57,296 nucleotides of DNA. Source: Pseudacidovorax intermedius. GTDB lineage: Bacteria > Pseudomonadota > Gammaproteobacteria > Burkholderiales > Burkholderiaceae_C. The DNA is taken from positions 1-57,296 of the forward strand of contig NZ_LDSL01000073.1 of the NCBI RefSeq assembly GCF_001476815.1, written 5' to 3'. The position numbers were made by a program, and so were the translations under genes. Below are positions 1,367-21,026 of the stretch, piece after piece. How positions within the stretch are numbered: the first letter of the stretch is position 1; each line of letters opens with the position of its first letter. The notes beneath the pieces are model-generated. The model ran no database searches. It was given only the letters and a program-made list of their open reading frames with translations, and was not told where the DNA came from.

Positions 1367-3139
1367 TCAGCCCGTCAGTTGCCCAACGACCGTCATCGGC
1401 GTCGCCGCCATCGGCAGGTCGCCCGCCAGCAGCCGGCGCAGCGCCGGCTCCGTCACCGGCCGGCTGAACAGGAAGCCCTGCACCAGGTCGCAATCCAGGC
1501 GCTGCAGGCAGTCGAGCTGCGCCTGGGTTTCCACGCCTTCGGCCACCACCCGCATGCCCAGGCTGTGGCCCAGGTCGATCACGGTGCGCACCAGCGCGGT
1601 GTCGGCATGGGTGCCGGGCAGGTCCATGACGAAGCTGCGGTCCACCTTGAGCTCGTCCAGCGGAAACTGCTTGAGGTAGGACAGCGAGGAATAGCCGGTG
1701 CCGAAGTCGTCCAGCGACAGCGAGATGCCGGTGGCCTTGATCTCGTGCAGGGTACTCAGGCAGGCCGGCACCTCGTTCATCAGCATGCTCTCGGTCAGCT
1801 CCACCACCAGCTGGGCCGCGGGCAGGCCGCTGTCGGCCAGGGCGCGGCGCAGCACGCCTTCCAGGTCGCCGCCGATGATCTGCGGCTTGGCCACATTGAC
1901 CGACACCGACACCGCGCCCAGTCCGTCGGCCGCCCAGGCGGCGACGTCGCGGCAGGCATGCTCGATCACCCACTGGCCGACCTCCTGCACCAGGCCCATT
2001 TCTTCGGACAGGGGAATGAACTCGGCCGGCGGCACCAGGCCGCGCTCGGGATGCTGCCAGCGCACCAGTGCCTCCACGCCGGCGATGCGGCGGCTGCCGA
2101 CGTCCACCTTCGGCTGGTAGTGCAGCCGCAGCTCGCCGCGGGCGGCGGCGCCGCGCAGCTGCGCGCCGAGCAGGGTGCGCTGGTAGGACTGGGCGTTGAG
2201 CTGCGGCGAGGCGAAGCTCAGCGGCTGGCCGCTGCGCCGGCCCTCGGTCAGGGCCAGGTCGGCGCTCTGGCACAGGGCGCGGGCGCTGGTGCCGTCGTCG
2301 GGGGCCATGGCCGCGCCCAGCCAGGGCGTGGGCGCCACGTCCAGGCCGCGCATGCGCACCGGCTCGGCCAGCGCGGCGAGCACGGCCTTGGCCATGGCGG
2401 GCAGCGCCTGCGGGCCCGGCAGCGCATCGATCACCAGGGTGAAATGCTGCTCGTCTAGCCGGGCGGCACGCACGCCGCCGTCGCCCTCGCGCCGGGCGCC
2501 GAAGCGCTCTGCCAGGCGCTCCAGCCGGCGCGCGACCACGGTGGTCAGCAGCTCGGCGGCGGCCGGGTCCAGGCTTTCGCGCAGTTGCCGGCATTCGGGC
2601 ACGCCGATGCTGAACAGCGCCGTGCGCTCGTCCCGCGCCGCCGCCTTCGCCAGCAGCGCCTGCAGGCTCTTGCCGAACAGCGTGCCGTTGGGCAGGCCGG
2701 TGAGCTGGTCGTAATGGATCAGCCGCTCGTGGTAGTGGCGGAAGACCAGCGTGTTGCGCACCCGCAGCACCAGTTCGCTCGGATCCACCGGCTTGGCCAG
2801 GAAGTCGGTGGCGCCCAGCTGCAGGGCCCGCAGCTTGGACGCCGGGTCGCTGGCGGCGGTGAGCACGATCACCGGCAGATGGCGCAGCGCTTCGTCGGCG
2901 CGCACCTGCTCCAGGATCTCGAAGCCGGAGATGCCGGGCATGACCAGGTCCAGCAGCAGCAGCTCGGGACGGTGCTGGCGCAGCAGCGCGGCCGCGTCGG
3001 CGGGCTCCTGCGTGGCGATGAAGCGGGTGTAGCCCGCCTCCTCCAGGTAGGTCTGCACCAGGTCCGTCATCAGGGGATCGTCGTCCACCATCATCAGGGT
3101 GGACGACAGCAGGGGCGAAGGTGGCGGCACGCTGGGCAT
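1367..3139 (-). CDS. Response regulator with degenerate GGDEF and intact EAL domain
   Basis: A 590-residue protein. Residues about 15-135 are a receiver domain with the phospho-acceptor D64 in LLLLDLVMPG and a conserved lysine in DFLAKPV. Residues about 155-310 are GGDEF-like (YDQLTGLPN), but the signature position reads RLDEQ, so cyclase activity is unlikely. Residues about 330-575 are an EAL domain with its catalytic set: EAL (E356), SVNV, ELTES, DDFGTGYSSL, KVDRSFV and VAEGVET. It should act as a c-di-GMP phosphodiesterase gated by phosphorylation. The start at 3139 lies 7 bp after the upstream kinase stop, so the kinase-regulator pairing is strongly suggested. This is the last gene of the adhesin operon. 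It could instead sense c-di-GMP without hydrolysis, but no catalytic residue appears lost. Confidence 0.9.
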   Translation of the reverse strand: MPSVPPPSPLLSSTLMMVDDDPLMTDLVQTYLEEAGYTRFIATQEPADAAALLRQHRPELLLLDLVMPGISGFEILEQVRADEALRHLPVIVLTAASDPASKLRALQLGATDFLAKPVDPSELVLRVRNTLVFRHYHERLIHYDQLTGLPNGTLFGKSLQALLAKAAARDERTALFSIGVPECRQLRESLDPAAAELLTTVVARRLERLAERFGARREGDGGVRAARLDEQHFTLVIDALPGPQALPAMAKAVLAALAEPVRMRGLDVAPTPWLGAAMAPDDGTSARALCQSADLALTEGRRSGQPLSFASPQLNAQSYQRTLLGAQLRGAAARGELRLHYQPKVDVGSRRIAGVEALVRWQHPERGLVPPAEFIPLSEEMGLVQEVGQWVIEHACRDVAAWAADGLGAVSVSVNVAKPQIIGGDLEGVLRRALADSGLPAAQLVVELTESMLMNEVPACLSTLHEIKATGISLSLDDFGTGYSSLSYLKQFPLDELKVDRSFVMDLPGTHADTALVRTVIDLGHSLGMRVVAEGVETQAQLDCLQRLDCDLVQGFLFSRPVTEPALRRLLAGDLPMAATPMTVVGQLTG

Positions 3140-3146
3140 GGGTGGG

Positions 3147-5671
<2,525 letters not shown>

Positions 5672-5675
<4 letters not shown>

Positions 5676-8600
5676 GGGACGGCTCCCGCCGCGGGCGGCA
5701 GGCCCTGCGGCATGCCCGGGCCGGACGAGGCCGCCGCCGGGGTCGACGAGGCGGGCGAGGCGGGCGAGGCGGACGCCGGGGTGGCGCCGGAGGACCGGTC
5801 GAACAGCCGCTCGACCTCGCGCTCGCCGGGCGCCACCGGCCCGCGCTTCGGACGCTTGCGGTTGCGGCTCGCGGCCATCACCGGCAGCGGATCGATCATC
5901 TGCCAGGCCGGCAGGGCCGACAGCATGGCGCTCGCCAGCACGCCGCCGCGCAGCAACCAGAAGACGTAGCCGATCGACAGGCTGCTGGCCGCCAGCGTGC
6001 CCGTGCCGGCCACGGACAGGCGCAGCACGCCCGTCGACGCGCCGGCCTGGCGCGCCTCGTCGAGCAGGCGGCGGGCCTCGTCATGGCCTATGGCGCGCGC
6101 GTGGGGCGCCGCTTCGCCCGCCGGCAGGTCGGGCAGCACGGTCGCCAGCGCGTCGGGGCGATGGGCCGGGTCGCGCATCAGCCAGTGGGCGGCTTCCATC
6201 GGCAGGCGCAGCAGGGGCGGCGCGGCCTCGACGGCGCGCGCCGTCCAGCGCGCCACGCCGCCGAGTTGCTCGGCGTCGGCGATGGGCGAGCGCACGATCA
6301 GGGATGGGAAGGCTGCGTCGGGTGCGAGGGACGCCAAGGCCGGCGCGTTCGCCACTTGCGCATCCGCCGGGGCCAGCGGGTTGACGGCTGCCGCGGGCGT
6401 CCGCGGACTGGCCAGAGCGGGGACAAAGGGCTGCGGCTCGGCCGGCGAGGTCGCCATGGGCGGTGGCGGCTCGGCCGCGGCAGGCGCCACAGGCGGCGGC
6501 TCGGCGGGTGCAGGCGCCACGGCCGGGACGGGCACGGCCGTGACGTCCAGCGACATCATCGTATCGGCGTACAGGCCCTGCGGATCGGTCGCCCGCACGC
6601 GCACCAGCAGTTGCCCGGCCTGGGCCACGGGTGCCATGCCGCTGAAGCGGCCGGTGGCGGCATCGAAGCCCAGCCAGTCCGGCAGCGGCGCGCCGCTGGC
6701 CAGCGTCGCGCTGTAGCGCAGGCTGTCGCCGTCCGGGTCCACGAAGGCATCCGCCGGCATGGTGTAGCCGAAAGGGCTGCGGGCCGTGGCCTGTTGCGCG
6801 GGCAGCGCGGCGCCGGCGCGCGGGCCGTCGTTCACCGGCGCGATGGCGATGCGCACGGTGGCGCGCGTGCTGCCGCCCTGGCCGTCGCTCACGCGCACGT
6901 CGAAGCGGTCGTCGCCATAAAAGTCGGCGTCCGGCGTGTAGACGAAGCCGCCGTCGGGGGCCACCACCACCTTGCCGTGCAGCGGATCGCCGGCCTTGGC
7001 ATAGGTGAGCGTGTCGCCGTCCACGTCGGTGGCGGCCAGGCGACCGGCGAGCGGCGCGTCCTCGTCCGTGCCGGTGGCCATGTCGGCCATCACCGGCGCG
7101 TCGTTGACGGGGGTGACGGTGATGTCGAGCGTGCTGCCGGCGCCGGTGTTGGTGGTGTAGGCGATCTGCGGGACGCGGCCGTTCCAGTCGGCGTCGGGCG
7201 TGAACTGCCACTGCCCGTCGGCCGCCAGGGTGAAGCGGCCGACGCCGGCCACCGTGGCCGTGCCGCCGGCCGCCACCGTGGCGGACTGGCCCACCACCTG
7301 GAAGGAAACCACGCGCAGGGCGTCGTCCACGTCGCCGTCGTTGTCCAGCACATTGCCCGACGCCGGCGTGTCCTCGGGCGTGGTGGCGGTGTCGGGCCGC
7401 AGCACGCTGGGGTCGTCCACCGGCGTGACGGTGATGCGCACCGTGGCGACGGCCGTGCCGCCGTTGCCGTCGCTCACCACCACGGTGAAGCTGTCGCTGC
7501 CGTTGAAGTCCTGGTTCGGCGTGTACGTCCAGCGGCCGTCGGCGGCGACCACCGCCGTGCCGTTGCGCGGGTCGCTGGCCTTGGCATAGCTCAGCGCATC
7601 CCCGTCCACGTCCGACCCCTGCACCGCGCCGGAGACCGGCGTGTCCTCTGCCGTGGTCTGCGCATCGTCGCCCACCACCGGCGCGTCGTTGACGGCGCCC
7701 ACGTTGATGGTGACCGTGGACACCGCGGCGCCGCCCTGGCCGTCGCTCACGACGACGGTGAAGCGGTCGACGCCGTTGTAGTTCGACGACGGCGTGTAGA
7801 CGTAGAGCCCGGTCGCGGTGACGACCACGATGCCGTGCAGTGGATCGCTGCCCTTGGCGTAGCTCAGCGTGTCGCCGTCCACGTCGCCGCCGTTGACCTG
7901 GCCGGTGATGGCCAGGTTTTCACCCGTGCTGACGTTGTAGTCGGACACCGTCGGCGCATCGTTGACCGGCGTGACCGTGATGCGCACAGTCGAGGTCGCC
8001 ATGCCGCCCTTGCCGTCGCTGACGATGACCGTAAAGCTGTCGTTGCCGTTGAAGTCGCGGTTCGGCGTGTACGTCCAGCGGCCATCGGCGGCCACCACCG
8101 CCGTGCCGCTGCGCGGGTCGCTGCCCTTGGCGTAGCTCAGCGCGTCGCCGTCCACGTCGGCGCCCTGCACCTGGCCGGAGACCGGCGTGTCTTCCGCCGT
8201 CGTCGGCGCATAGTCGCCCACGGTCGGCGCGTCGTTCACCGGCGTGACGGTGATGCGCACCGTCGAGGTCGCCGTGCCGCCATTGCCGTCGTTGACGATG
8301 ACGGTGAAGCTGTCGTTGCCATTGAAGTTGCGGTTCGGCGTGTACGTCCACCGACCATCGGCGGCCACCACCGCCGTGCCGTTGCGCGGGTCGCCGCCCT
8401 TGGCGTAGCTCAACGCGTCGCCGTCCACGTCGGCGCCCTGCACCTGGCCGGCGACGGACGTGTCTTCGGCCGTGGCGACGTTGTCGTCGCCCACCGTCGG
8501 CGCGTCGTTCACCGGCGTGACGGTGAGGCGCACCGTCGAGGTCGCCGTGCCGCCCTTGCCGTCGCTGACGATGACCGTAAAGCTGTCGTTGCCGTTGAAG

Positions 8601-11600
8601 TCGCGGTTCGGCGTGTACGTCCACCGGCCATCGGCGGCCACCACTGCCGTGCCGTTGCGCGGATCGCTGCCCTTGCCGTAGCCCAGCGCGTCGCCGTCAA
8701 CATCGGCGCCCTGAACCTGGCCGGAGACCGGCGTGTCCTCGGCGGTGGTCTGCGCGGTGTCGCCCACTGTCGGCGCGTCGTTCACCGACGTGACCGTGAT
8801 GCGCACCGTCGAGGTCGCCGTGCCGCCATTGCCGTCGTTGACGATGACCGTGAAGCTGTCGTTGCCGTTGAAGTCGCGGTTCGGCGTGTACGTCCACCGA
8901 CCATCGGCGGCCACCACCGCCGTGCCGTTGCGCGGGTCGCTGCCCTTGGCATAGCTCAGCGCGTCGCCGTCCACGTCGGCGCCCTGCACCCGGCCGGAGA
9001 CCGGCGTGTCCTCGGCGGTGGTCTGCGCGGCGTCGGTGATCGTCGGCGCATCGTTCACCGGCGTGACGATGAGGCGCACCGTCGAGATGGCCGTGCCGCC
9101 ATTGCCGTCGCTGACGATGACGGTGAAGCTGTCGGTGCCATTGAAATCGCGGTTGGGCGTGTACGTCCAGCGGCCATCGGCGGCGACCACGACTGCGCCG
9201 TTTCGCGGATCGCTGCCCTTGCCGTAGCCCAGCGCGTCGCCGTCCACGTCGGCGCCTTGCACCTGGCCAGAGACCGGCGTGTCCTCGGCGGTGGTCTGCG
9301 CGGTGTCGCCCACCGTCGGCGCGTCGTTCACCGGCGTGACCGTGAGGCGCACCGTCGAGGTCGCCGTGCCGCCCTTGCCGTCGTTGACGATGACGGTGAA
9401 GCTGTCGTTGCCATTGAAGTTGCGGTTCGGCGTGTACGTCCACCGACCATCGGCGGCCACCACCGCCGTGCCGTTGCGCGGGTCGCTGCCCTTGGCATAG
9501 CTCAGCGCGTCGCCGTCCACGTCGGCGCCCTGCACCTGGCCGGCGACGGACGTGTCTTCGGCCGTGGCGACGTTGTCGTCGCCCACCGTCGGCGCGTCGT
9601 TCACCGGCGTGACCGTGAGGCGCACCGTCGAGGTCGCCGTGCCGCCCTTGCCGTCGTTGACGATGACCGTGAAGCTGTCGTTGCCGTTGAAGTCGCGGTT
9701 CGGCGTGTACGTCCACCGGCCATCGGCAGCCACCACCGCCGTGCCGCTTCGGGGATCGCTTCCCTTGGCGTAGCTCAGCGCATCGCCGTCCACGTCGGCG
9801 CCCTGCACCTGGCCCGACGCTGGCGTGTCCTCGGCGGTGGTCTGCGCGGTGTCGCCCACCGTCGGCGCATCGTTCACCGGCGTGACGGTGAGGCGCACCG
9901 TCGAGGTCGCCGTGCCGCCCTTGCCGTCGCTGACGATGACTGTGAAGCTGTCGTCGCCGTTGAAGTCGCGGTTCGGCGTGTACGTCCAGCGGCCATCGGC
10001 GGCCACCACCGCCGTGCCGTTGCGCGGATCGCTGCCCTTGGCGTAAGTCAGGGGGTCCCCATCCGCATCGCTGCCGGTCACTCGGCCCGACACCGGTGTG
10101 TCCTCCGCGGTGGCTTGCGCGGCGTCCGTCACCGCCGGCGCACGGTTCGATGCGCCGACCTGGACGGTGATGGTCGCGTTGACGACGCCGCCATTGCCAT
10201 CGCTCACGGCCACCACGAAGCGATCGGTACCGACGAAGTTGAGCAGCGGCATGTAGACGTACGCCCCGGACACCGCCACCACCAGCGTGCCGTGCAGCGG
10301 ATCGACGCCTTTGGCGTAGCTCAGCGCGTCGCCGTCGACATCGCTGCCGGTCACCTGGCCGGTCAGCACCGTGCCCTGCAGGATGTTGACCGTTTTGTCG
10401 TTCACCGTCGGCGCATCGTTGACCGGGTCGACGGTCAGCGTGAAGCGGGTGCTGGCGGCGTTGCCCTCGGGATCGCGCACAGTCACCGTGACGGCGCTGC
10501 GGCCATTGGCATTGGCGGCCGGTGTCAAGGTGAGGGTGCGCGCGCCGCCGTTGCCGCCCAGCACGACGCCAGAAGCCGGCAGCAGTTTGCCGTCGTCCGC
10601 CCGCACCTCGACCACCAGGTCGTCGACATTGGTGTCCGGGTCGCCGACGGTGAAATTGATCGCGCCAGTACTGCCGTCCTCGTCGATGCGCTGGTCGCCG
10701 ATGGTGCTGATGGTGGGCGGCTGCAACGCGAGTTCGTAGGCGCCGATGTCGGCGCGGCCGGACCGCGCCACGCCGCGCTGGTCGGTGGTCACGCCATCGT
10801 TGGGGTTGGCCGCATTGACGGCCGGATTGCCCGACGCTGTGGCCCGCGTGCGGCCGAAGCCGCCGTTGTCGGCCAGGCCCTGCAGGGCCACGCCCGTGTT
10901 GTTGCGGTCGCCCGGGCCCGACAGGCCCAGCGTGCCGTCGGTGCTGAGGTTGTAGCCGTTCGACGCCGCCACGCTGTGGCTGTTGCCGCCGCCATTGTTG
11001 GCAAACAGCGAATTGCCGGCCGTGAAGCCGTTGGCCGCATACACGCCGCCGGCGTCGGGTGCCGAGTTGTCGGCGACGGTGGCGTGGTCGAGCACGAAAG
11101 AACCGCTGGTCCAGGCCGCGCCACCGTACTGGCTGGCCGAGTTGCCGCTGAAGGTGATGTTGGTGCCGCTGAATGCGCCGAAGTTGTCGACGCCGCCGCC
11201 GAAGGTCGCGCTGTTGTCGGCGAGCGTGGCGCGCTGCAGGATGGCACTGGCGCCTGCATGCACGTAGATGCCGCCACCGTCGGTGTTGCCCGCCCTGTTC
11301 TGCGACAGCTCGGCATCGTTGGCGTTCAAGCTGCCATGCGTGTCCACGTAGATGCCGGCACCGTTGACGCGGGCGCTGCCGTCGCCGTTCTGCTGCACGC
11401 GCGTGCGGTTAAGCGCGAGGCGGCCGTCGGTGTAGATGCCGCCCCCCTTGCCTTGTCTGTTGTAGCCGTTGTTGTTCTGCACCACCGCGTCGTTCAGCGT
11501 CAACGCCGCGTTCTGCACGACGCGCACGCCGCCGCCCTGCGCGCTGGCACCGTTCTGGATGGTCATGCCCGACAACGTCACGCTGCCGCCGCGCACATCG

Positions 11601-12553
11601 AACACCCGGTCCTGGCCGCCGCCGTCGATGATCGTCCGACCAGCGCCGTTGCCCACGATCTCGACACTGTCGGTGATGTCGAGATCGCCGCTCGCATTGC
11701 CATCCTCGCTCTGCGAGGCAAGGAGAGGGAGGCCGGCGAGCGAGAAAGTACCGTCGACGGCGAAGACGATGGTGTCGGTGCCGGCCTGCGCGTTGGCCTG
11801 GTCGATGGCCCAGCGCAGCGTGCCGGGCACCACGCCCTGGTCGAGCACCGAGGTCACGGTGTAGGTGGCCATCAGCCCTTGCCAGCTCGCCTGCTCGGCG
11901 GCGCTGACGGCCGAGGCGGCGTGGATCGGGCCGCCCGTGGTGTATTCCAGCGTCCAGTCGCCGCCACGTTCCGCGGCGCCGGTGAGGTCGGTGCTGGCGG
12001 CGACGTCGGCGCCGGTGAGGTCGGCGATGTCCTGCACCAGCGACTGGCCGACCGTCGTCCCGGCCAGGTCGCAGCCGTAGAGCAGCAAGTCGGCGCCCGG
12101 CGCCAGTGCGGCGGACCAGCCGGCCACCTCGGGCGCGCGCTGCAGCAGCGCGGCGGCGTCGAGCACGCTGGTGCCCAGCTGCAGGCGGCCGTCGCTGCCG
12201 TGGGCCAGCACATGCACGGCGTCCAGCCCGCTGCGGCCGGCCAGGGCGCCGGACATCACGGCCAGGCCGTCCTCGTCGGCGCCGATGGTCACCACCTCGA
12301 TCGGCCGGCCGGCGGCCTGCTGCTGGCGCAGGTCGGCCACCATTCCGGCGGCGTCGGGCAGCGACAGATCGACGAAGGCGATTTCGTTGGCGCTCGCCTG
12401 CTGCGGCTGCGCCGCGAAGGCGGGCTGCAGCGCCCCCGTGGACAGCATGCCGGTGCCGACGGCCAGGCCGGCGAGGTCCGCGGAATGCAGGATGCGCTCC
12501 TCCATCGCTTCCACGACGGGACGGGCGAAGCCGGGGTCGGCAGGGCGGGCCAT
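5672..12553 (-). CDS. Giant LEPR-XLL/DUF4347 surface protein with tandem cadherin-like repeats
   Basis: A 2293-residue protein with no ordinary signal peptide. Residues about 15-30 carry a LEPR-XLL-type motif ([11 protein letters not shown]). Residues about 55-215 are DUF4347 ([29 protein letters not shown]). Residues about 225-605 form a parallel beta-helix of glycine-rich repeats closing with the DIGAYEL choice-of-anchor motif. From about 615 to 1908 there are Ig/cadherin-like domains, each starting near NDAP, most of 91 residues. A putative-Ig domain follows at about 1910-2010, then a Pro/Ala-rich linker. Near the C terminus a hydrophobic helix (about 2192-2216) is followed by the basic run RNRKRPKRG and a low-complexity tail. 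It lacks RTX nonapeptides. This is probably a surface adhesin or matrix protein exported by the five genes upstream; role and route are inferred. Confidence 0.88.
7400..10130. repeat. Array of 273-bp tandem repeats inside the giant adhesin gene
   Basis: Near-identical units recur every 273 bp (91 codons); for example the AEDT-coding segment recurs near 8460, 8733, 9006, 9279, 9552 and 9825. Each unit encodes a core such as [14 protein letters not shown], then [13 protein letters not shown], then [11 protein letters not shown]. Divergent units flank the core. Variants such as GDDNVAT and GYGKG recur at intervals of several units, suggesting block duplication or gene conversion. Boundaries are approximate. 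Confidence 0.85.
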
Positions 12554-12574
12554 GGCAGAGGTGGCGGTCGGGCG

Positions 12575-13573
12575 TCAGCGCGCGGCGGGTGCACCGGTCG
12601 TGACGGCGGTTGTGGCCGGCGCCGGCACGGGAGACGTGGCCGGGTTCCGGCCACCGGCCTGCGGCGGCGCGGAGACGGCGGCGGCGGGCCTCAGGGCGCC
12701 CGGCGTGCCGGCGGCCCCGGCCGCGGGCGGCAGCTCGGGCAGCTCGGCCTTGCAGCGCAGGCCAGCGGGCAGCCGGCCGCCCGGATTGGGCAAGGACAGC
12801 CGCACGCGGAAGCTGTTGCTGGCGGCGTCGAACACGCGGTCCATCCGGGTCACGGTGCCGGTCACCGGCCCCTGGTCGGGCAGTTCGGGCTGCACCGCCA
12901 GCCGGTCGCCCAGGTGCAGGCGTCCGTGCAGGGCCACGGGCACCATCAGTTCCACCCGCAGCGGATCGACCACCGCGATGCGCATGAGCGGTTTTTCCTC
13001 CACCCGTTCACCCGGGTTGACGAAGCGGTCCACCACCACGCCGGCGAAGGGACTGCGCACGGTGCGCTGGGCGAGCTGGGCATCGGCCACGCGGCGCTCC
13101 TCGCCGAGCACCCGGCGCTGGTCCTGCGCCTGGGCCAGCTTCTGGCTGGCCTGCTCCTGCTCGGCGGCGGCCTGGTCCACGGCCTGCTGCGAGATGAAGT
13201 TCTCCTGCAGCAGGCCTTTGGCGCGGCGCAGCTTCTGATTGGCGAAGTCCAGCGCGGCGCGGGCGGCCAGCACGTCGGCCTCGGTGCGGGCGCGGGCACC
13301 CGCGGCGCTGGCGCTGGCGCGCTCGACGTCGGCACGCAGCAGCAGCAGCACCTGGCCGGCGTGCACCTCGTCGCCGCGCTCGACGCGCAACTGGTCGACC
13401 ACGCCCACCACGGGCGTGCCGACGTCGGCCACGCGGTCGGGCTCGATCAGGCAGCCCAGCGGCCGGGCGGCCGGGGCGGCGGCGGCACCGGCGGCGGCCA
13501 GCAGCGCGAACGCCGCCGCCAGCGCGGCCCGGTCGGGACGCAGCGCGGCGACGGTGGCGGCGGCAGCGGCCAT
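12575..13573 (-). CDS. Periplasmic adaptor (membrane fusion) protein
   Basis: A 332-residue protein of the RND/HlyD adaptor class. The chosen ATG (13571-13573) overlaps the stop of the SecA-like gene in an ATGA, which settles the start. The N-terminal hydrophobic stretch at about 12-32 can act as signal peptide or anchor. Then come the lipoyl-like half GTPVVGVVDQLRVERGDEVHAGQVL, an alpha-hairpin coiled coil (about 75-150) rich in Ala, Gln and Arg, the second lipoyl half VRSPFAGVVVDRFVNPGERVEE, and a beta-barrel domain. The end is a Pro/Ala tail. It should bridge inner-membrane parts and the TolC-like channel. No RND pump is encoded nearby, so it probably serves the export locus. Confidence 0.88.
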   Translation of the reverse strand: MAAAAATVAALRPDRAALAAAFALLAAAGAAAAPAARPLGCLIEPDRVADVGTPVVGVVDQLRVERGDEVHAGQVLLLLRADVERASASAAGARARTEADVLAARAALDFANQKLRRAKGLLQENFISQQAVDQAAAEQEQASQKLAQAQDQRRVLGEERRVADAQLAQRTVRSPFAGVVVDRFVNPGERVEEKPLMRIAVVDPLRVELMVPVALHGRLHLGDRLAVQPELPDQGPVTGTVTRMDRVFDAASNSFRVRLSLPNPGGRLPAGLRCKAELPELPPAAGAAGTPGALRPAAAVSAPPQAGGRNPATSPVPAPATTAVTTGAPAAR

Positions 13574-15609
13574 CAGGCGGATGGGAAATGCCGTTCCCAT
13601 TGCCGCTCCTGCGCGAGCAGGGCGGCGCGCAAGCGCGCGCGCCGTCCTTCTTCGTGCCATTGCCACGCTCGGCGCTGCAACCATGTCGTCGACTCCCTGA
13701 TTCCGTTCAAACTTGTTACCAAATTGTTAATTAGCCCATCCAAACTGTCGAGGCCGACCCCGCTGAATTTGGGCTGAACCATGAACAACTGCGCACTTCC
13801 GGGCTCTCCGTGGCGCGCGGCGCGGCCGAAAAGCTGCCGGTCCAGCCGCTGCGACGGGTTGTGCTGGCAGCACAGGACGTGCAGCCCGCCCGCGGCGCGT
13901 GCGTCCGCGTCCAGCGCGATGTCGGTGCCGCGGCCCGCCATGCGGGTGGCGACGGTGACCTGCCCGGCGCGGCCGGCGCCGGCCACGATCTCGGCCTCCT
14001 GTGCGTCCTGCAGGGCATTCAGCACCCGGTGCGCGATGCCCGCCTGCCGCAGCACGGCCGACAGGGCCTGCGAGTCGGCCACGTCGTCGGTGCCGACCAG
14101 CACCGGGCGGCCGGCGGCCCGCAGCGCCGCCACCTCGGCCGCGACGGCCTGCCAGCGGGCCTCGGCGCTGGCGAACGCCCGCGGCGGCAGCCGGCGCAGG
14201 CGGCTGGGCGCATGCAGCGGCACGCGCACCACCTGCGCGCCGAACACCTGCCGCAACTCGTGCCGCGCCTGCCACAGCGTGCCGCTCAGGCCTGCGAGGC
14301 GCCAGTAGCGCAGGAAGAAGCGGGCAAAGCTGCTCTGCGCCACCACGTCGCTGTCGACCGCGGTGCGCAGCCCTTCCTTGAGCGCGACCAGCGTCTGCAG
14401 TCCGCGGGCCAGCACCCGTCCCTCGGCCGCGCGGCCGGTGACCTCGTCGAGCAGCACGATGGCGCCGTCGCGCACCAGGTAGTGGGCGTCGCGGCGCAGC
14501 AGGTGCTGAGCGACCAGGGCCAGGCAGACCGCCTCGCGCCGGTAGCGCGGCCAGCGCCAGCGGCCGGGCAGGCCGGCGGCCAGCTCGGCCAGGCGGGCTT
14601 CGCCGGCGGGCGTGAGTTCGGCCTCGCGCTCGGCCGGTCGCGTGTCGAAGTCGCGCCCCGGCTGCAGCTGGCGCGCCACCGCGAAGGCCTGCCACAGGAA
14701 GGCGCGGCGCGTGGCCTGCACCACGGGGCGCGACAGCACCAGCGGCAGGTCGGCCTCGTCCATCAGGATGCTGTCGGCCTCGTCGATGAGGGCCAGGCAC
14801 AGGCCGCGCTGGCCGGAATGGTGCGGTGCCGGTGCGTGGCGGCCTGGGGATGGCGCGGCCGCGTCTGCCGCAACAGTCGCGCCATGCTCGTAGGCCGGCA
14901 TGACCGCCGACGCCCCATCCCCGGCCTGCGCAAATCGGTCGCGCAGGAAGTCGAAGGCCAGCTCGCGCGCGGTGGTGTGCACCACGTCGTGGGCGTAGAG
15001 GCCCGGCCGGGTGGCGGGCGCATCGGCCGCCCGCAGCGCGCAGGCGCGCAGGCCGAGCGCCGCGTAGAAAGGCGCGAGCCAGGTGGCGTCCCGGCCCGCC
15101 AGGTAGTCGTTGGCCGTGACCACGTGCACCGGCATGCCGGCCAGCGCGCCGACGGCGGCCGCCAGGGCCAGGGCCAGGGTCTTGCCCTCGCCGGTGGCCA
15201 TTTCGGCGAAGCGGCCGTCGAGCAGCGCCGCGGCGGCCATGCGCTGGGTCTGGCGCGGCATCAGGCCCAGCGTCAGCGACGCGCAGCCGCTCGCCACGCC
15301 CAGGGCCTCGGCCAGGGCAGCGGGCTGCAGGCCATCACGACGCAGGCGCCGGCGCAGGACGGCGAGGGCCGCGGCACGCTCGCCGTCCGGCAGGGCCAGC
15401 CAGCGCTGCGCATGCGCCTGCGCGTCGCGGCCGATCCGGGCGGCGAAGCCGGCGGGCGTCCGGAGCAGACGTGCCACGCTGAGTCGACGCGCGGGCGGCG
15501 CCTCGGCCTCGGCACCACCCGGCCGCATCGGCCGCGCGCCCCACACCGGACCGGGCCGCGGCAGCAGGCGGGCGAGGTCGGTGGGCAGGGTCGAGGCGGC
15601 GGCGGGCAT
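13573..15609 (-). CDS. SecA-like translocase ATPase, shortened paralogue
   Basis: A 678-residue DEAD-type motor clearly related to SecA but shorter than housekeeping SecA (about 900). Motifs in order: Walker A MATGEGKTLA (about 137-146; SecA has TGEGKT), VTANDYLAGRDATW, Walker B region LIDEADSILMDEAD (about 272-285), LAGLSGTLWQA, VATRMAGRGTDIALD (about 553-567) and RQLFGRAARHGEPGS, matching the SecA helicase core. It ends soon after the second ATPase domain without the C-terminal zinc-binding tail, and much of the helical wing appears reduced. It starts 11 bp after the M50-HlyD stop and overlaps the adaptor gene. The likely role is energising export of the giant protein, perhaps with SecYEG or with the adaptors; this is inference. 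Confidence 0.88.
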   Translation of the reverse strand: MPAAASTLPTDLARLLPRPGPVWGARPMRPGGAEAEAPPARRLSVARLLRTPAGFAARIGRDAQAHAQRWLALPDGERAAALAVLRRRLRRDGLQPAALAEALGVASGCASLTLGLMPRQTQRMAAAALLDGRFAEMATGEGKTLALALAAAVGALAGMPVHVVTANDYLAGRDATWLAPFYAALGLRACALRAADAPATRPGLYAHDVVHTTARELAFDFLRDRFAQAGDGASAVMPAYEHGATVAADAAAPSPGRHAPAPHHSGQRGLCLALIDEADSILMDEADLPLVLSRPVVQATRRAFLWQAFAVARQLQPGRDFDTRPAEREAELTPAGEARLAELAAGLPGRWRWPRYRREAVCLALVAQHLLRRDAHYLVRDGAIVLLDEVTGRAAEGRVLARGLQTLVALKEGLRTAVDSDVVAQSSFARFFLRYWRLAGLSGTLWQARHELRQVFGAQVVRVPLHAPSRLRRLPPRAFASAEARWQAVAAEVAALRAAGRPVLVGTDDVADSQALSAVLRQAGIAHRVLNALQDAQEAEIVAGAGRAGQVTVATRMAGRGTDIALDADARAAGGLHVLCCQHNPSQRLDRQLFGRAARHGEPGSAQLFMVQPKFSGVGLDSLDGLINNLVTSLNGIRESTTWLQRRAWQWHEEGRRARLRAALLAQERQWERHFPSA

Positions 15610-15620
15610 GGCGTCTCGTC

Positions 15621-17819
15621 TCAGAACTGCGGGTTCAGGCGCTGCGACCAGCCGCGCCAGATCGCCTGCACCGTCCGCCAGCCCAGCGGCGCGAAGCCCA
15701 GGTCCAGCCGCACCCAGGCGCGCTCGCCCAGGCGGGCGGTGCCGGCGGCGGGCGGGCGGTCGAGCTGCACGTCGAGCAGCACGACCGGGCGCAGCGGCAC
15801 CAGGTCGTCGCCGTCCTTCGGATCGGTGGGCACCGGGCCGCCGTGGCGCTCGCTCAGGGCAGCGCTGGGCAGGCGGGCGACGGCGCCGAGGCTGTCGCGC
15901 ACCAGGCGGGCGTCGTGGGCGCGGCCGGGCGCGGCGGCCAGGCGCACGCCGGCCTCCGGCTGCGCCTCGGCCAGGGCGTCGGCCTCGGACTCGGGCAGCG
16001 CCACGCGCACCGTGGGCGGCGCGCCGCCCAGCACCTGGCCGACCAGCGCACCCTGCGCCAGCCAGCGGCCGGCCAGATCGCCGGCCTGCGGCTGCAGCAG
16101 GGCGACGCGGCCGGCGCTGCGGCTGCGCACCGCCAGCGCGGCGATGCGCTCGCGCAGCCGCGCCTGCGCATGGCGGGCGGCGGCCAACTCGGCCTGCAGG
16201 TCGCCGCTGCGGCGCTCCGGAGCGCCCGGCACCGGCAGCGCGCCGTCGCCGGGCAGGGACTGGACCAGCTCGGCCTCCAGCGCGGCGATGCGCCAGTCCT
16301 GCCGCTCCAGCTGGGTCTGCAGGGCCGGGTTCTCCAGCAGCAGGACCACCGCGCCGGCGGGCACCTCGGTGCCGTCGGCCACGCGCAGCTCGCGCACGAA
16401 GCCGGCCTCGTCGGCGCGCAGCTGGGCCTGCTCCGGCGGCCAGACCACGCCCTGCACGAGCGCATGCCGGGGCAGCGGCACGGCCAGCAGCGCCACGAGT
16501 GCCGCCACGCTGCCCAGCGCCAGCCGGCGCCAGCGTCGCGCGCTGGACGGCCGCGCCTGCGCCGCCGTGCGCAGCCGGCCCAGCAGCGCGAGCAGCGGCC
16601 GCAGCGCCATCTGCCAGCCCAGCAGAACGGCGCTGCCGACGCCCAGCAGCAGCGACACGCTGCCCAGCCAGAGCACCGTCCAGGCCACGATGGCCAGGCC
16701 GTAGAGCCAGGACAGCGGCGCGTAGGCGGCCAGCCAGGGCGCCTCGCCGGGCGTGGGGCGCAGGGCCTCGGCCTCTTCCTCGCGCCGCAGCAGGTGCCGG
16801 CGCAGTTGCGCCAGCCACCAGCCGCGGCTGCGCGTGGCCAGGTTGGGCAGGGCCAGCAGCTCGGTGGCGATGTGGTAGCCGTCCAGCCGCTGCAGCGGAT
16901 TGGCGTTGAACACCAGTGTGGACACGCCGGCCACGAAGAGGAGCACGAAGGCCAGGTCGCGCCCCGGCCCGTCGGGCAGCCAGAGCCACAGCGGCAGCGC
17001 CACGGCGGCGACGGCCAGCTCGGCCATCATGCCGGCCGCGGCCACCAGGATGCGCTGGCGGCGCCGCACGAACAGCGTGGAGGCAGAGGCGTCCATCCAC
17101 GGCAGCGGCAGGCCCATGACCAGCGTGACGCCGGCGTCGTGCACGGTGCCGCCCCAGCGCCGCACCGCCAGGCCGTGGGCCAGTTCGTGCACCAGCTTGA
17201 GCGGCAGATAGGCCAGCAGCGCCAGCAGCACGTAGCGCGGCGTGGCCAGCCATTCGCGGCCATGCGCCACCAGCTCGGGGCCGTGCTGCGCGGCCAGCAC
17301 CAGCAGCGCGGCGACCGCGGCGAGCCACAGCACGGCGCCGGCGGGCGAGAAGACGCGCTGCAGCGGCGCCAGCCGGTCGAGCAGCCGCGCCGGATCGGCC
17401 AGCCGCAGCCGCCAGGCGAGCAGGCTGCGCGGCGCGCGGGCGGTGGCGCCGTCGGCGCTCTCCTCGCCCGGGGCCGGCGCCTCGCCGGGGTCCAGCCGCA
17501 GCCGCGGCGCCTCGCCGTCGAAGCGCAGCAGGCCGGCGGCGTCCAGTCGGGCGAGCAGGTCCACCACCTCCTCCTGCGTGGGCGGCTCGCGGCGGCCTTC
17601 CAGCAGTTGCTCCCACACCGCCTGCACGCTGCGCCGGCCGTCGAGCCGGGCGGCGATGTCGTAGGCCGCGGCATTGAGCCGCACGCTGCGCCGCGCGCCG
17701 GTGTCGGCCAGCAGGAACCAGGTCTCGCCGCGCACCTGCTGGCGCCGCACGCACAGCTGGCGTGGCAGCCTCGGCCTGAGGGCCGCGACGCGGTGCCAGC
17801 GCGGGCTGTCGCCGCTCAT
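15621..17819 (-). CDS. PqqD-like / M50 site-2 protease / HlyD fusion protein
   Basis: A 732-residue membrane protein. Residues about 5-95 resemble a PqqD-type peptide-binding domain (RRQQVRGETWFLLADTG, then a winged-helix-like AAGLLRF end). Residues about 150-430 hold several membrane helices with the zinc protease motif H211-E-L-A-H215 and the distal NPLQRLDGY motif (D313), so the M50 active site looks complete. Residues about 445-730 form a HlyD-like adaptor with two half lipoyl domains and a short coiled coil. It sits 58 bp after the GAF-HlyD gene and 11 bp before the SecA-like gene. PqqD-M50-HlyD architectures are known in bacteriocin- and peptide-export loci. Here it may recognise, process or release the giant protein; that is inference. 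Confidence 0.87.
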   Translation of the reverse strand: MSGDSPRWHRVAALRPRLPRQLCVRRQQVRGETWFLLADTGARRSVRLNAAAYDIAARLDGRRSVQAVWEQLLEGRREPPTQEEVVDLLARLDAAGLLRFDGEAPRLRLDPGEAPAPGEESADGATARAPRSLLAWRLRLADPARLLDRLAPLQRVFSPAGAVLWLAAVAALLVLAAQHGPELVAHGREWLATPRYVLLALLAYLPLKLVHELAHGLAVRRWGGTVHDAGVTLVMGLPLPWMDASASTLFVRRRQRILVAAAGMMAELAVAAVALPLWLWLPDGPGRDLAFVLLFVAGVSTLVFNANPLQRLDGYHIATELLALPNLATRSRGWWLAQLRRHLLRREEEAEALRPTPGEAPWLAAYAPLSWLYGLAIVAWTVLWLGSVSLLLGVGSAVLLGWQMALRPLLALLGRLRTAAQARPSSARRWRRLALGSVAALVALLAVPLPRHALVQGVVWPPEQAQLRADEAGFVRELRVADGTEVPAGAVVLLLENPALQTQLERQDWRIAALEAELVQSLPGDGALPVPGAPERRSGDLQAELAAARHAQARLRERIAALAVRSRSAGRVALLQPQAGDLAGRWLAQGALVGQVLGGAPPTVRVALPESEADALAEAQPEAGVRLAAAPGRAHDARLVRDSLGAVARLPSAALSERHGGPVPTDPKDGDDLVPLRPVVLLDVQLDRPPAAGTARLGERAWVRLDLGFAPLGWRTVQAIWRGWSQRLNPQF

Positions 17820-17877
17820 GGCGCGGCCCCGGCGCGGGCGCCGCTGCGACGCGGCCTGGCCATGGGCATGCGGGCGC

Positions 17878-19272
17878 TCATCCCCACCACGCCCACAAGG
17901 CGACCCGCAGGCGCAGCAGTGCATGCCGCGTCCAGGCCCACAGCAGCGGCGCGCGGCCGGCATCGATGCTGGCGCGGCCGAGCAGGCCGGGGCGCAGCTC
18001 CGGCCGGGCGTCGAGCAGCCGGGCCTCGACCTCGAACACGTTGCGGCCCTCCACCGCGCGGGCCAGCGGCGCGATGCGCTCCACCCGCAGCGGCTCGCGC
18101 GCCCACAGCCAGGCCGACAGCGACAGCCAGCCGGCCTGGCCGGGCTGAACGCGGGCGATGTCCACCTCGTCCACGTCCACGATCACGCGCTGGCGGCGGT
18201 TGTCGGCCAGGGTCAGCAGCAGGTCGCCCTGGCGCACCGGCGCGCCGATGGACTGGGCCAGGTCGCCCTGAATGACGACGCCGTCGAAGGGCGCGACCAG
18301 CCGGCCGCGGGCGATCTGCGCGGCGATCAGCGCCAGCTGGGCCTGCGCCTCGCTGACGCGCGCCAGGCTGGTGGCGGCGGCCACGCGGTCGCGGTTGGCC
18401 ATGGCGGCGGCATAGGCGTTCTCGTGCTGGGCGAGCTGCTGGCTCCAGCGCTCCTGCTCGAGCCGCTGGTCGGCGTCGAGCAGGTCGACCAGCGGATCGC
18501 CGGCGCGCACGCGGTCGCCGGGGCGCACGTGCACCGTCTTGACGAAGCCGTCGGTAGGGGCGGAGATCTGCCGCTGCTCGGCGCCCTCGATGCGGGCGCG
18601 GCCACTCACGGTGTCGTCCAGCGGCACGGCGGTGGCGAAGGCCAGCACCAGCGCGCCGGCCAGCAGCAGGCGCCGCCGGCCGCGCTGGCCGGGCGCGCGC
18701 AGCCGCTGCCAGGCCTGTGCCAAGGCTTGCCGGGCGCGGCGCCGCCAGGGCAGCTGGGCGGCCTGCATCCAGTGCAGGGCCGGCGTGGCCGGAGCGAGCC
18801 AGGCGGCCAGGCGCTGCAGCTCGTCGGCACCGAAGGGCTGGCCGGCCGGGCGCTCGGCGCAGACGGCCGCCACCGGCACGCCGTGCAGGCCCAGCGGCAC
18901 GCAGGCGACGGCGGCCTGCAGGTGGGCCTGCAGCAGGCGGTGTTCGAGCAGGATGGCGTCGGTGGCACCGCCGGCCTCGGGCGCGGGGCAGGCCAGCGGC
19001 ACGCCCTGGTCCAGCGCCTCCTGCATGGCGCCGAGCAGCAGCGGGCGCAGGTCGGGCGGCAGGCCCTTGTCGTCGTGGGCGGAGCCGCCGGCGAAGCGCA
19101 GGCCGTCGGCCTGGTGCACGGCGATCCAGACGCGCTCGCAGCCGGCGAGGGCCGCCAGCCGCGTCGCCAGGCGCGCGGCGCCCTCGTCCACGCCGAGGGC
19201 GCCGAGCAGCTCGGCCGCCAGCTGGCCGGCCTGGGCCGCCGTCGCCGCGTCGCTGCCGGTCGCCTGCGCCAT
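17878..19272 (-). CDS. GAF-domain HlyD-like adaptor protein
   Basis: A 464-residue protein. Residues about 15-170 form a GAF-like domain (VWIAVHQADGLRF, then CVPLGLHGVPVAAVCAERP). A single membrane helix follows at about 203-220 (RRLLLAGALVLAFATAVP). The rest is a HlyD adaptor: SAPTDGFVKTVHVRPGDRVRAGDPL, a coiled coil at about 275-330, then RLVAPFDGVVIQGDLAQSIGAPVRQGDLL and a beta-barrel region. The GAF domain would face the cytoplasm and the adaptor the periplasm, so the conduit may respond to a small ligand. Its start is 10 bp after the TolC stop. Confidence 0.85.
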   Translation of the reverse strand: MAQATGSDAATAAQAGQLAAELLGALGVDEGAARLATRLAALAGCERVWIAVHQADGLRFAGGSAHDDKGLPPDLRPLLLGAMQEALDQGVPLACPAPEAGGATDAILLEHRLLQAHLQAAVACVPLGLHGVPVAAVCAERPAGQPFGADELQRLAAWLAPATPALHWMQAAQLPWRRRARQALAQAWQRLRAPGQRGRRRLLLAGALVLAFATAVPLDDTVSGRARIEGAEQRQISAPTDGFVKTVHVRPGDRVRAGDPLVDLLDADQRLEQERWSQQLAQHENAYAAAMANRDRVAAATSLARVSEAQAQLALIAAQIARGRLVAPFDGVVIQGDLAQSIGAPVRQGDLLLTLADNRRQRVIVDVDEVDIARVQPGQAGWLSLSAWLWAREPLRVERIAPLARAVEGRNVFEVEARLLDARPELRPGLLGRASIDAGRAPLLWAWTRHALLRLRVALWAWWG

Positions 19273-19282
19273 GCCGTGCGGC

Positions 19283-20752
19283 TCAGCGCGCGGACTGCGT
19301 CAGGCGCAGGCGGCGGATCAGTCCCGGATAGGCCGGTGCCGGCGCGGCCGCGGCCAGGGCGACGCCGGACGCCGCCGGGGCGAACAGGCCATCGATGCGG
19401 GCCAGGTCCTCCTCGCCCGCGGCGCCGGCGGCGGTCTTGAGGCGGAAGAACTGCGCCCAGGCCTCGTAGCCGGCGCGGGCCTTGTCGCGCCGCGTCTGGT
19501 ACAGCTGCGACTGGGCCGCCAGCACGTCGGCGCCGATGCGCACGCCCACCTCGTAGCCGCGGCGGTTGGCGGCCAGCGCGGTCTCGGCCGAGCGCTCGGC
19601 CGCCTGCAGCCCGCGGAACTGGGCGATGGCGCCCAGCGCCGCATAGAAGGCCTGGCGCACGGCGCCGCCGACCTGGCGGCGGGCGGCTTCCAGGTCGGCG
19701 GCGGCCTTGTCCTCCTGCGCCACGGCCTCGCGCACGCGGGCGTCGAGCCCGCCGCCGGCGTACAGCGGCACGTTGAGGTTGAGCCCCGCCTGCACGAAGC
19801 GGCCCGACTGCGGCAGCGCACTGACGGTGGTGGCGCCGGCCCGCACCGCCTGCTGGCTGAGGCTGAAGTCCAGCGTGGGCAGGCTGCCCGCCTGCATCTT
19901 GCGCACTTCGAGCTGCGCCACCGCCAGCGCAAGGCGTGCCTGGCGCACCACCGGGCTGCCGCTTTCGGCCAGGTCCAGCCAGCGCGTCAGGTCGGCCTCG
20001 CCCAGGTCGGGCGCCTCGGCTGGCGGCAGGCCGGCCCCCGGCACCTGCACCCGCTGGCCGACCACCTGCTCCAGCGCGGCCTCCTTGGCCTGGCGCTCCA
20101 TTTCGGCGGCGGCTTCCTGGGCAGTGACGGCGTCGAACTTCGCCTCGGCATCGCGCACGTCGACGATGGAGACGGTGCCGGCATCGAAGCTGCGCCGCGC
20201 CAGGGCCAGCTGCTCGGCCGTGGCCTGGCGCTGGCCGCGCAGCTGCACCAGGTCCGAACGCACGGCCTGCAGTTCGAAGAAGGCGCCGACCATGCGCTGC
20301 AGAAGGTCGGCATGCACGGCGTCGCGCTGGGCCTCCAGCGCATCGACGGCGACGCGGGACTGCTGCAGCGCCTGCCACGGCACCGGCCGGTAGAGCGGCT
20401 GGTTGAGCGACAGGGCGTACTGGCGGGTGGAGAAGTCGCGGTCGGGCGGCTGGGACAGGCCGGTGAGGTCGTGGTAGTCGGTGCGGCTGGCCGAGGCGCC
20501 CAGGCCCACGCTGGGCCGCAGCGCGGCGGCGGCCTGCTCGGCCCGTTCGGCGCCGGCGCGCTGCTGCGCCTCGGCGCCGGCCAGCGCCGGATCGCTGGCG
20601 ACGGCAGCGTCCTGCCATTGCCGCAGGCCCTGCGCAGCCGCCGGCAGCGCCAGCGCCGCGACCAGCGCGGCACCCAGCACGACGACTGGCGCAGCCCGCC
20701 CCCGGCGCGGCACGTTCCGGCCGCGAAGGCTGTGGCAACCCTTGCTTTCCAT
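19283..20752 (-). CDS. TolC family outer-membrane channel
   Basis: A 489-residue protein. The N terminus has a basic region then VVVLGAALVAALALPAAAQG, a good Sec signal peptide with cleavage after AAAQ or close by. The remainder shows the duplicated TolC architecture: long Ala/Gln/Glu-rich helices alternating with short beta segments such as YALSLNQPLYRPVPW and AGLNLNVPLYAGGGLDARVREA. It is the first gene of the eight-gene minus-strand unit, divergent from poxB. It should form the outer-membrane exit of the export apparatus. Confidence 0.9.
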   Translation of the reverse strand: MESKGCHSLRGRNVPRRGRAAPVVVLGAALVAALALPAAAQGLRQWQDAAVASDPALAGAEAQQRAGAERAEQAAAALRPSVGLGASASRTDYHDLTGLSQPPDRDFSTRQYALSLNQPLYRPVPWQALQQSRVAVDALEAQRDAVHADLLQRMVGAFFELQAVRSDLVQLRGQRQATAEQLALARRSFDAGTVSIVDVRDAEAKFDAVTAQEAAAEMERQAKEAALEQVVGQRVQVPGAGLPPAEAPDLGEADLTRWLDLAESGSPVVRQARLALAVAQLEVRKMQAGSLPTLDFSLSQQAVRAGATTVSALPQSGRFVQAGLNLNVPLYAGGGLDARVREAVAQEDKAAADLEAARRQVGGAVRQAFYAALGAIAQFRGLQAAERSAETALAANRRGYEVGVRIGADVLAAQSQLYQTRRDKARAGYEAWAQFFRLKTAAGAAGEEDLARIDGLFAPAASGVALAAAAPAPAYPGLIRRLRLTQSAR

Positions 20753-21026
20753 GGAACTCGACTCCCTGCAGCGGACTGCGCCGGCACTGCCGCCGTCGGC
20801 GGCCGGCCTTTCGTCAGTAAATGTTAACCAGTGTATTTAATTACTAAGCATTTGATGCAATGATGGGGGGTTTCGCGGGGCTTTTGATTCGAAAGTTCTC
20901 TTTTTTGCACCGCGATCATGAGCTCGGCATCAACAGGGGGTTCTGCTCCTACCTGGCACGCAGCCCAGGCGACATAGGATTTACGGAGTCCATTCGTGTT
21001 TACCCTATACCCATCCAGGAGTGCCC
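20753..21026. promoter_or_regulatory. AT-rich divergent promoter region between tolC-like gene and poxB
   Basis: This 274-bp gap separates the divergent starts. Bases about 20815-20870 are far richer in A and T than their surroundings. On the minus strand TTGCAT (20855-20860) and TACACT (20830-20835) are separated by 19 bp, a loose sigma-70-like pair that could drive the 19-kb operon. I find no convincing -35/-10 pair for poxB and no clear palindrome. Confidence 0.4.

Follow-up and report, generated by a model that had tools for sequence, protein, structure and literature searches.

A widespread LEPR-XLL-linked gene system in Pseudacidovorax intermedius and other bacteria: a candidate exporter of giant proteins without an ABC transporter

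The locus and its genes

The DNA analysed here, hereafter the window, is the whole stretch of 57,296 nucleotides at positions 1 to 57,296 of contig NZ_LDSL01000073.1 (Pseudacidovorax intermedius, RefSeq assembly GCF_001476815.1). It carries a cluster of eight minus-strand genes, all with open frames, running from 20752 down to 1367, among them a PqqD-M50-HlyD fusion gene, a SecA-like gene and the gene of a giant protein with a LEPR-XLL motif, which is treated below as the cargo of a candidate export system. An original prediction, made from the letters alone, had described eight minus-strand genes separated by no more than 58 bp, and both the open frames and the family scans (Pfam, NCBIfam) agree with it: for each of the eight genes the family named earlier, or a close one, was matched. 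The features are as follows.

19283..20752, minus strand: TolC-family outer-membrane channel, 489 amino acids (aa); OEP 154 bits, TIGR01844 245.6 bits against a cut-off of 225
17878..19272, minus strand: GAF-HlyD adaptor, 464 aa, a GAF domain followed by an HlyD barrel-sandwich (HlyD_3, HlyD_D23, GAF)
15621..17819, minus strand: PqqD-M50-HlyD fusion, 732 aa; start corrected from 17963
13573..15609, minus strand: truncated SecA-like ATPase, 678 aa; first nucleotide-binding domain (NBD1), preprotein cross-linking domain (PPXD), NBD2 and the start of the helical scaffold
12575..13600, minus strand: plain HlyD/RND-type (resistance-nodulation-division) periplasmic adaptor, about 341 aa, start at 13600 or 13573; TIGR01730 122.7 bits against a cut-off of 94.9
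5672..12553, minus strand: cargo, 2,293 aa; LEPR-XLL, DUF4347, about 14 Ig/cadherin-like repeats and a hydrophobic C-terminus
12455..12517, minus strand: LEPR-XLL motif, the proposed address tag; NF012209 25.8 bits at that place
11873..12382, minus strand: DUF4347, predicted clan-CD cysteine-protease fold with the dyad H118/C161
7412..10141, minus strand: ten 273-bp tandem repeats within the cargo gene; Tandem Repeats Finder (TRF) score 3683
3147..5675, minus strand: hybrid kinase PAS-HisKA-HATPase-REC-Hpt, 842 aa
1367..3139, minus strand: REC-GGDEF-EAL regulator, 590 aa

With the starts of the M50 gene and the EAL gene corrected to 17819 and 3139, the intergenic gaps are 10, 58, 11, 21 and 7 bp. 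One of the two ATGA overlaps proposed originally, that between the cargo and kinase genes (5672-5675), is retained; the other, at the SecA-like/HlyD junction, is a 1-nt TGATG or, with the HlyD start at 13600, a 28-nt overlap. Since the GC content of the cluster (about 70-78%) makes long chance frames common, the genes were identified by family scores and not by length. The system is probably present a second time in the same genome, interrupted by contig ends (C44:464-2596 and C137, the latter being L069): C44 ends with a GAF-HlyD gene, a fusion gene and the beginning of a SecA-like one, and C137 (3-695 and 3570-4985, minus strand) a SecA-like gene and a LEPR start scoring 38.7 bits. Here and below, G, L and C numbers denote the genomes, loci and contigs of this analysis.

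Recurrence across genomes

The fusion gene was matched in at least 72 of 299 sampled genomes of the phylum; these scans, for the fusion and the SecA-like gene, scored up to three candidates per genome, such that the counts are lower bounds. Fusion-gene carriers are found in Rubrivivax, Aquabacterium, Zoogloea, Ramlibacter, Accumulibacter, Bradyrhizobium, Marinobacterium and Desulfobulbaceae, and in a Nitrospiraceae and an Omnitrophota bin. A strong link to Omnitrophota giants was considered and dropped, only one of 14 genomes around G301 having a fusion gene.

Two subtypes, named type A and type B here, were distinguished, type A comprising the stronger fusion-gene matches. A SecA-like gene adjoins the fusion gene in 19 of 20 loci taken from the strongest long matches, some small-contig ones being skipped. 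Across 33 type-A loci a SecA-like match was found in 31 (four of them weak or cut: G000 C44, G010, G002 and G117b) and none at G165 and G278, and the GAF-HlyD profile was matched in 30. In the best 80 named loci among the matches listed from a collection of 84,980 species, a set biased towards the subtype of the window, a SecA-like match exceeds 60 bits in 71, and in L187 a cut fragment scores 56 bits. Conversely, the SecA-like profile found 37 places above threshold in the same 299 genomes, two of which are housekeeping SecAs by extent (G056, G114); of the remaining 35, 34 adjoin a fusion gene, and in G081, the 35th, the fusion gene lies at the end of another contig.

The gene order recurs in dozens of genomes from many families, and by gene content and order the locus is a member of a real, widespread and tag-specific gene system. 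Its core, as defined by conservation, consists of the PqqD-M50-HlyD fusion, the GAF-HlyD protein, the plain HlyD protein, TolC in some loci, and a LEPR cargo without an evident Sec signal. The system is apparently undescribed: no such system was found in the titles and abstract starts of the papers that searches of an open-access library listed, or in passages of PMC3482391, PMC8262886 and PMC13323088, a corpus outside which lie most subscription journals and all preprints. In six genomes (G065, G105, G097, G006, G014, G026) the exporter genes are followed by a frame of about 680-700 aa, which is ShlB/POTRA in G097, the one scanned, and by a haemagglutinin-like giant, placing two giant-export routes in one neighbourhood.

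LEPR-XLL as a candidate address tag

The LEPR model NF012209 scores 20.4 and 25.8 bits in the window cargo, above its cut-off of 17. For a wider comparison a LEPR-like motif was scored as [LFMIV]E.[RK].[LMFIVA][FLYHM][SDAG][ADSGE], a pattern widened after variants had been seen, in 63 DUF4347 proteins whose N-terminus lies within the stretch in every case and which are not independent of one another. The motif is present in 44 of 45 proteins beside a fusion gene, the single motif-minus row (L152) being a fragment of a broken frame, and in none of the 18 whose stretch has no fusion gene. Fourteen of these 18, from 13 genomes, were chosen because their genomes gave no fusion match; second copies account for the remaining four (one in G165, two in G102, one in G233), in genomes whose system lies elsewhere. 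Counted over whole genomes, 12 of 24 exceeded the cut-off of the NCBI LEPR model, and every one of these 12 has the system; none of nine genomes without it passed, three genomes with the system stayed below the cut-off (G062, G167, G148), and one of 14 control genomes also passed. These counts (44 of 45 linked proteins, none of the 14 from genomes that lack a fusion gene) uphold the original proposal of a dedicated system with LEPR-XLL as targeting tag, and support the view that LEPR-XLL behaves like an address tag of the system.

The association holds by genome rather than by locus. With one locus taken per genome, the tag is present in 28 of the 30 best DUF4347 loci: 11 with a nearby fusion gene on the same contig, one (L098) with a fusion gene about 36 kb off, and 16 on contigs without a fusion match, most of which end too soon to judge. 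All 16 have a fusion gene elsewhere in the genome, and HlyD-type genes neighbour the tagged protein in G085:C46 and G105:C168. The original prediction had named LEPR-XLL proteins that routinely occur without these neighbours as the finding that would speak against it; counted by locus this is partly the case (16 of 28 on contigs without a fusion match, three of them clear orphans), whereas all these genomes have the system elsewhere. In G016 two LEPR places above the cut-off and away from the fusion gene are a short frame and a broken DUF4347 gene. At L291:6223-8630:+ and L286:7030-9425:+ two HlyD-type genes stand close to a DUF4347 cargo that is tagged, and the stretch shows no fusion gene.

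DUF4347 itself was considered as the tag and rejected, as the 18 DUF4347 proteins away from the fusion gene have no LEPR motif. In three of the untagged loci (L237-L239) the DUF4347 protein is followed by an ABC (ATP-binding cassette) protein and by other frames sized as in type I secretion; in three others (L233, L234, L243) it ends in a hydrophobic stretch and a basic tail, surface-sorting-like in our reading, and in L234 its N-terminus is signal-like.

The fusion protein and its cargo

The original prediction had not recognised the fusion protein as what, judged by its conservation, it is: a constant core part of the system. In the window it scores 25.0 bits for PqqD (cut-off 23.4) and 19.3 for M50, below the Pfam cut-off of 27.2; despite that score it carries both signatures of an M50 site-2 protease, HExxH as HELAH (211-215) and NPxxxxD (307-313). 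Residues H211, E212, H215, N305, P308 and D313 are invariant in 25 fusion sequences from both subtypes. Compared with solved structures, the fusion profile matched the PqqD structure 3g2b (E 0.0014), the site-2 protease 3b4r (E 0.003) and adaptors of the MacA/MexA/HlyD type. PqqD-like domains bind leader peptides in systems for ribosomally synthesised and post-translationally modified peptides (RiPPs), which suggests by analogy that the PqqD domain of the fusion would read the LEPR leader. In G034:C32 and G061:C30 the fusion matches begin at profile position 117, possibly without the PqqD part, and a SecA-like neighbour is present.

The window cargo matches DUF4347 (158.6 bits), 14 Big_9/tandem-95 repeats and LEPR-8K (20.4 bits, cut-off 17). 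No RTX or type I secretion target family was found in it at an E-value of 0.001 in Pfam and NCBIfam, where such signals are poorly modelled. A simple hydropathy scan of the first 120 residues found nothing like the hydrophobic stretch of a signal peptide in this or the other readable tagged cargoes; the same crude scan flags a signal-like N-terminus in a neighbouring gene product, the two-partner protein of G250. The longest tagged proteins have 14,916 aa where the whole frame was read and 15,251 aa by open frame, and the tagged giants of G233, G019 and G149 gave no match to the DUF4347 profile of this analysis. Cargoes beside a SecA-like gene are longer (median 7,477 aa, n = 14, against 2,464 aa, n = 15; p 0.0024), in a comparison of hand-listed complete cargoes from which shared ancestry was not removed.

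At their other end the window-like cargoes (window, L151, L155, L216, G165) share a hydrophobic terminus resembling GYVxWLxRxG...PxWxxxDPLPVL, with or without SecA; none of the type-B cargoes examined has it. A different ending, [RK][IV]xW, a motif spotted by eye, closes 10 of the 19 other large frames that neighbour a type-A fusion gene. One subtype has a conserved DUF3467 protein of about 100 aa between the giant cargo and GAF-HlyD (L051:13589-13891:-, L053:12855-13154:-, and others). This small protein stands next to several of the giants with the [RK][IV]xW end, and its start, KIVWDD, resembles that end, as if both were to fit one groove.

DUF4347 has a caspase/CHAT-like fold with an invariant His-Cys pair. 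The original prediction had overlooked that with this clan-CD fold and dyad the domain looks like a cysteine protease, as predicted here from the fold; the passages seen of PMC13323088 likewise describe Tce1, a DUF4347 protein of solved structure, as a putative cysteine protease.

The SecA-like ATPase

The SecA-like protein has the DEAD motor, the PPXD clamp and the second P-loop domain of the SecA superfamily (SecA_DEAD 213.7, P-loop_SecA 135 and SecA_PP_bind 56 bits), and the Walker A, DEAD, AGRGTDI and GRxxRxGxPG motifs are kept, with single exceptions, in 21 SecA-like sequences. Its alignment to the 923-aa housekeeping SecA of the same genome stops just past the start of the helical-scaffold helix, such that the helical wing domain, the two-helix finger and the C-terminal linker are missing, a truncation that the original prediction had overlooked. 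The scores for the housekeeping SecA model TIGR00963 (383.6 against 800) and for the SecA2 models (257-362 against 725-1100) are far below the cut-offs. A truncation before the wing domain, the two-helix finger and the zinc-bearing tail speaks against ordinary docking on SecYEG, and the protein would not be expected to engage the channel in that way.

One branch with a support of 100 separates the 91 SecA-like proteins of a tree from its 13 housekeeping SecAs. Over 61 of 114 loci, those with all four genes, SecA-like distances correlate with those of the fusion protein (r = 0.91; shuffled maximum 0.10), of GAF-HlyD (0.84) and of HlyD (0.60), and HlyD distances correlate more weakly with the fusion protein (0.55). 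The single supported branch and the close tracking of the fusion protein point to an old, single, system-specific branch of SecA. The protein is a part of this subtype, with a likely motor role in it.

The regulators

In all six window-like loci checked (window, L150, L151, L155, L216, G165) the kinase gene directly follows the cargo gene, with or without SecA, and in three of them (window, G165, L216) a REC-GGDEF-EAL match comes next. The last domain of the window kinase is an Hpt and the first of the EAL protein a receiver; in the latter the EALVRW and DDFGTG motifs are intact and the GGDEF motif is degenerate. With a terminal Hpt and an N-terminal receiver, a phosphorelay from the kinase to the breakdown of cyclic di-GMP (c-di-GMP) would be the natural reading. 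The originally proposed link of the kinase-EAL pair to surface state is in line with the recurrent position of the kinase, which does not show what the kinase controls. Next to the cluster, window 21021-22751 (plus strand) is an ordinary thiamine-pyrophosphate enzyme gene.

Proposed mechanism and alternatives

The balance of the evidence leans towards the locus belonging to a widespread family of exporters that do without an ABC protein, serve giant proteins tagged with LEPR-XLL and work as follows. The PqqD domain of the fusion would hold the LEPR leader, which the intramembrane protease of the same protein would trim or gate, and the three HlyD-type proteins together with TolC would form the conduit. 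In the subtype of the window the cut-down SecA, acting on the fusion protein rather than on SecYEG, would thread the long chain by ATP hydrolysis. DUF4347, with its predicted protease fold, would then process the cargo, the hydrophobic C-terminus of window-like cargoes may hold it in the envelope, and the kinase would pass phosphate through its Hpt domain to the REC-EAL protein, tying the system to c-di-GMP. The untagged DUF4347 proteins beside an ABC gene (L237-L239) were counted in favour of the exporter and its tag.

A number of observations weigh against this exporter. The type-B sample, 20 loci with weaker fusion-gene matches, most of them chosen for a DUF4347 match on the same contig, has two HlyD-type genes and the fusion gene in 20 of 20 and a SecA match in none; DUF4347 was found in 15, and the other five have a cut or a large frame. 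Only a housekeeping SecA is found in twelve type-B genomes and in type-A G165, G278, G300 (L216, Marinobacter sp. F3R11) and G302 (L210), the absence in G302 being weak because that genome is a 2.1-Mb bin; SecA-like genes lie elsewhere in the genomes of L158 and L163, and partial ones in that of L226. On a tree of 138 fusion proteins (102 with SecA, 27 without, 9 not scorable) the SecA label needs at least seven changes, five of them forced by well-supported branches, and the SecA-minus rows, 27 of the 129 scored, are the whole type-B sample and six type-A rows. This indicates that SecA was gained or lost repeatedly around a constant core, and since that core stands without SecA in type B, SecA cannot be the universal motor, a role ruled out by these loci together with complete genomes that have only the housekeeping protein. 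Of the original proposal of SecA as the motor, what survives is a machine part in the window's subtype, the main correction to be made to that proposal. The deepest puzzle is the conserved core itself, in which no gene can be recognised as an ABC, RND or MFS (major facilitator superfamily) pump. An overlooked ATPase in type-B loci was sought and rejected for ten chosen neighbours (five TolC, two Collar, two sulfotransferases, one of them below the cut-off, and one Crp-type regulator in Pfam), the remaining neighbours being unscanned and other loci not searched for RND or MFS pumps; three further scanned neighbours were TolC, giving eight TolC-family frames in all. TolC is often not adjacent, the window cargo matches VCBS repeats (114.9 bits against 15.5), and VCBS repeats are common in type I adhesins. 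Clear tagged orphans have no system gene within about 9 kb or more on each side (G053:C66, G061:C1, G077:C28), and a 12,249-aa tagged orphan (G019:C1:2506229) has none in its fetched flanks. Strict adjacency of tag and fusion gene is ruled out by these orphans, all in genomes with the system; the rule holds at the level of the genome, and the machinery would have to act in trans on orphan cargoes.

ABC exporters are not absent either. No ABC was found among the eight genes with Pfam or NCBIfam, so that the absence of an ABC claimed originally holds for the locus; for the genome it does not, as contig C31 carries a complete ABC of the LapB/LssB type (994 bits against 693). Of the Lap proteins also named as absent, LapD is not represented by the EAL protein, which scores 97 against a LapD cut-off of 1020, and LapG was outside the search. 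ABC matches were further seen within the fetched stretch of 3 of 33 type-A loci (G233, G155, G000 C44), weakly, as LssB type, in 2 of 20 type-B loci (L113 84 bits, L117 65 bits), and in 5 of the best 80 named loci. A remote ABC exporter could thus energise the conduit and make the system a scattered type I secretion, the more so as orphan cargoes show that parts can work in trans and DUF4347 proteins stand beside an ABC in L237-L239; the latter lack the LEPR tag, however, and no ABC is conserved in the blocks, so we consider this improbable. It is also unlikely that the cargo leaves by ordinary Sec and the fusion is a processing or release device, cleaving the hydrophobic C-terminus of the cargo in the manner of LapG: the invariant M50 residues and the conserved terminus of window-like cargoes would fit, but the LEPR cargoes scanned show no signal-peptide-like N-terminus and the type-B cargoes shown have no such C-terminus. 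A more serious contender, though a doubtful one, takes the SecA-like protein as an ATPase for the quality control, unfolding or gating of cargoes of great length, export being driven by the proton-motive force, by folding on the outside or by general Sec. The unchanged core of the SecA-free type-B loci, the 12 genomes with a single housekeeping SecA and the greater cargo length beside SecA-like genes argue for it; on the other side stand the retained ATPase motifs and preprotein clamp, and cargoes of 1,383-2,293 aa at SecA-bearing loci show that length alone is no explanation. Chance clustering of unrelated efflux, Sec and adhesin genes, which has nothing in its favour beyond the single window, is ruled out by the recurrence of the same order across many families and keeps a practically negligible probability.

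To our knowledge every tripartite exporter is defined by an energised inner-membrane pump of the ABC, RND or MFS type. Here a protease-adaptor fusion stands in the place of the pump, with a SecA-derived motor or no visible motor. That this amounts to a new class of secretion, in which the fusion replaces the ABC protein in a TolC conduit and reads an N-terminal LEPR leader, and one large branch of which recruited a SecA without the SecYEG-engaging parts to thread chains of up to about 15,000 residues, is a tentative proposal that falls somewhat short of an even chance. If true, SecA is able to act apart from SecYEG, LEPR-XLL can be used as the address tag of many giants that lack a known route, and single gene deletions can test how proteins of 10,000-15,000 residues are exported.

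Comparison with known systems

Like the proteases of daptide and other RiPP systems (NF041824), the fusion joins a PqqD domain to an intramembrane metalloprotease; unlike them it scores 112 bits against a cut-off of 300, is fused to an HlyD adaptor and would serve a giant protein. DUF4347 shares its fold and His-Cys pair with clan-CD proteases (CHAT, caspase, legumain), and the same idea is put forward for Tce1 in the part of PMC13323088 that was seen; the domain, whose protease activity here is a prediction, differs from them in its position, as it follows a LEPR tag at the N-terminal end of a giant that resembles an adhesin. With SecA2 and accessory Sec systems the locus shares a second SecA beside a large surface protein, but its SecA-like protein scores far below all SecA2 models (TIGR03714 320 against 930) and lacks the C-terminal part, and there is no SecY2 among the eight genes. 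In its parts the locus resembles type I secretion (LapBCE-LapA, HlyBD-TolC), with HlyD-type adaptors, TolC, a giant repeat protein without an evident Sec signal and a c-di-GMP-type regulator nearby, and the conduit probably works like that of type I secretion. By its genes the system is not a SecA2 system, nor is it type I secretion, as the gene block holds no ABC; from the latter it further differs by its N-terminal tag and a protease-adaptor fusion in the place of the ABC protein.

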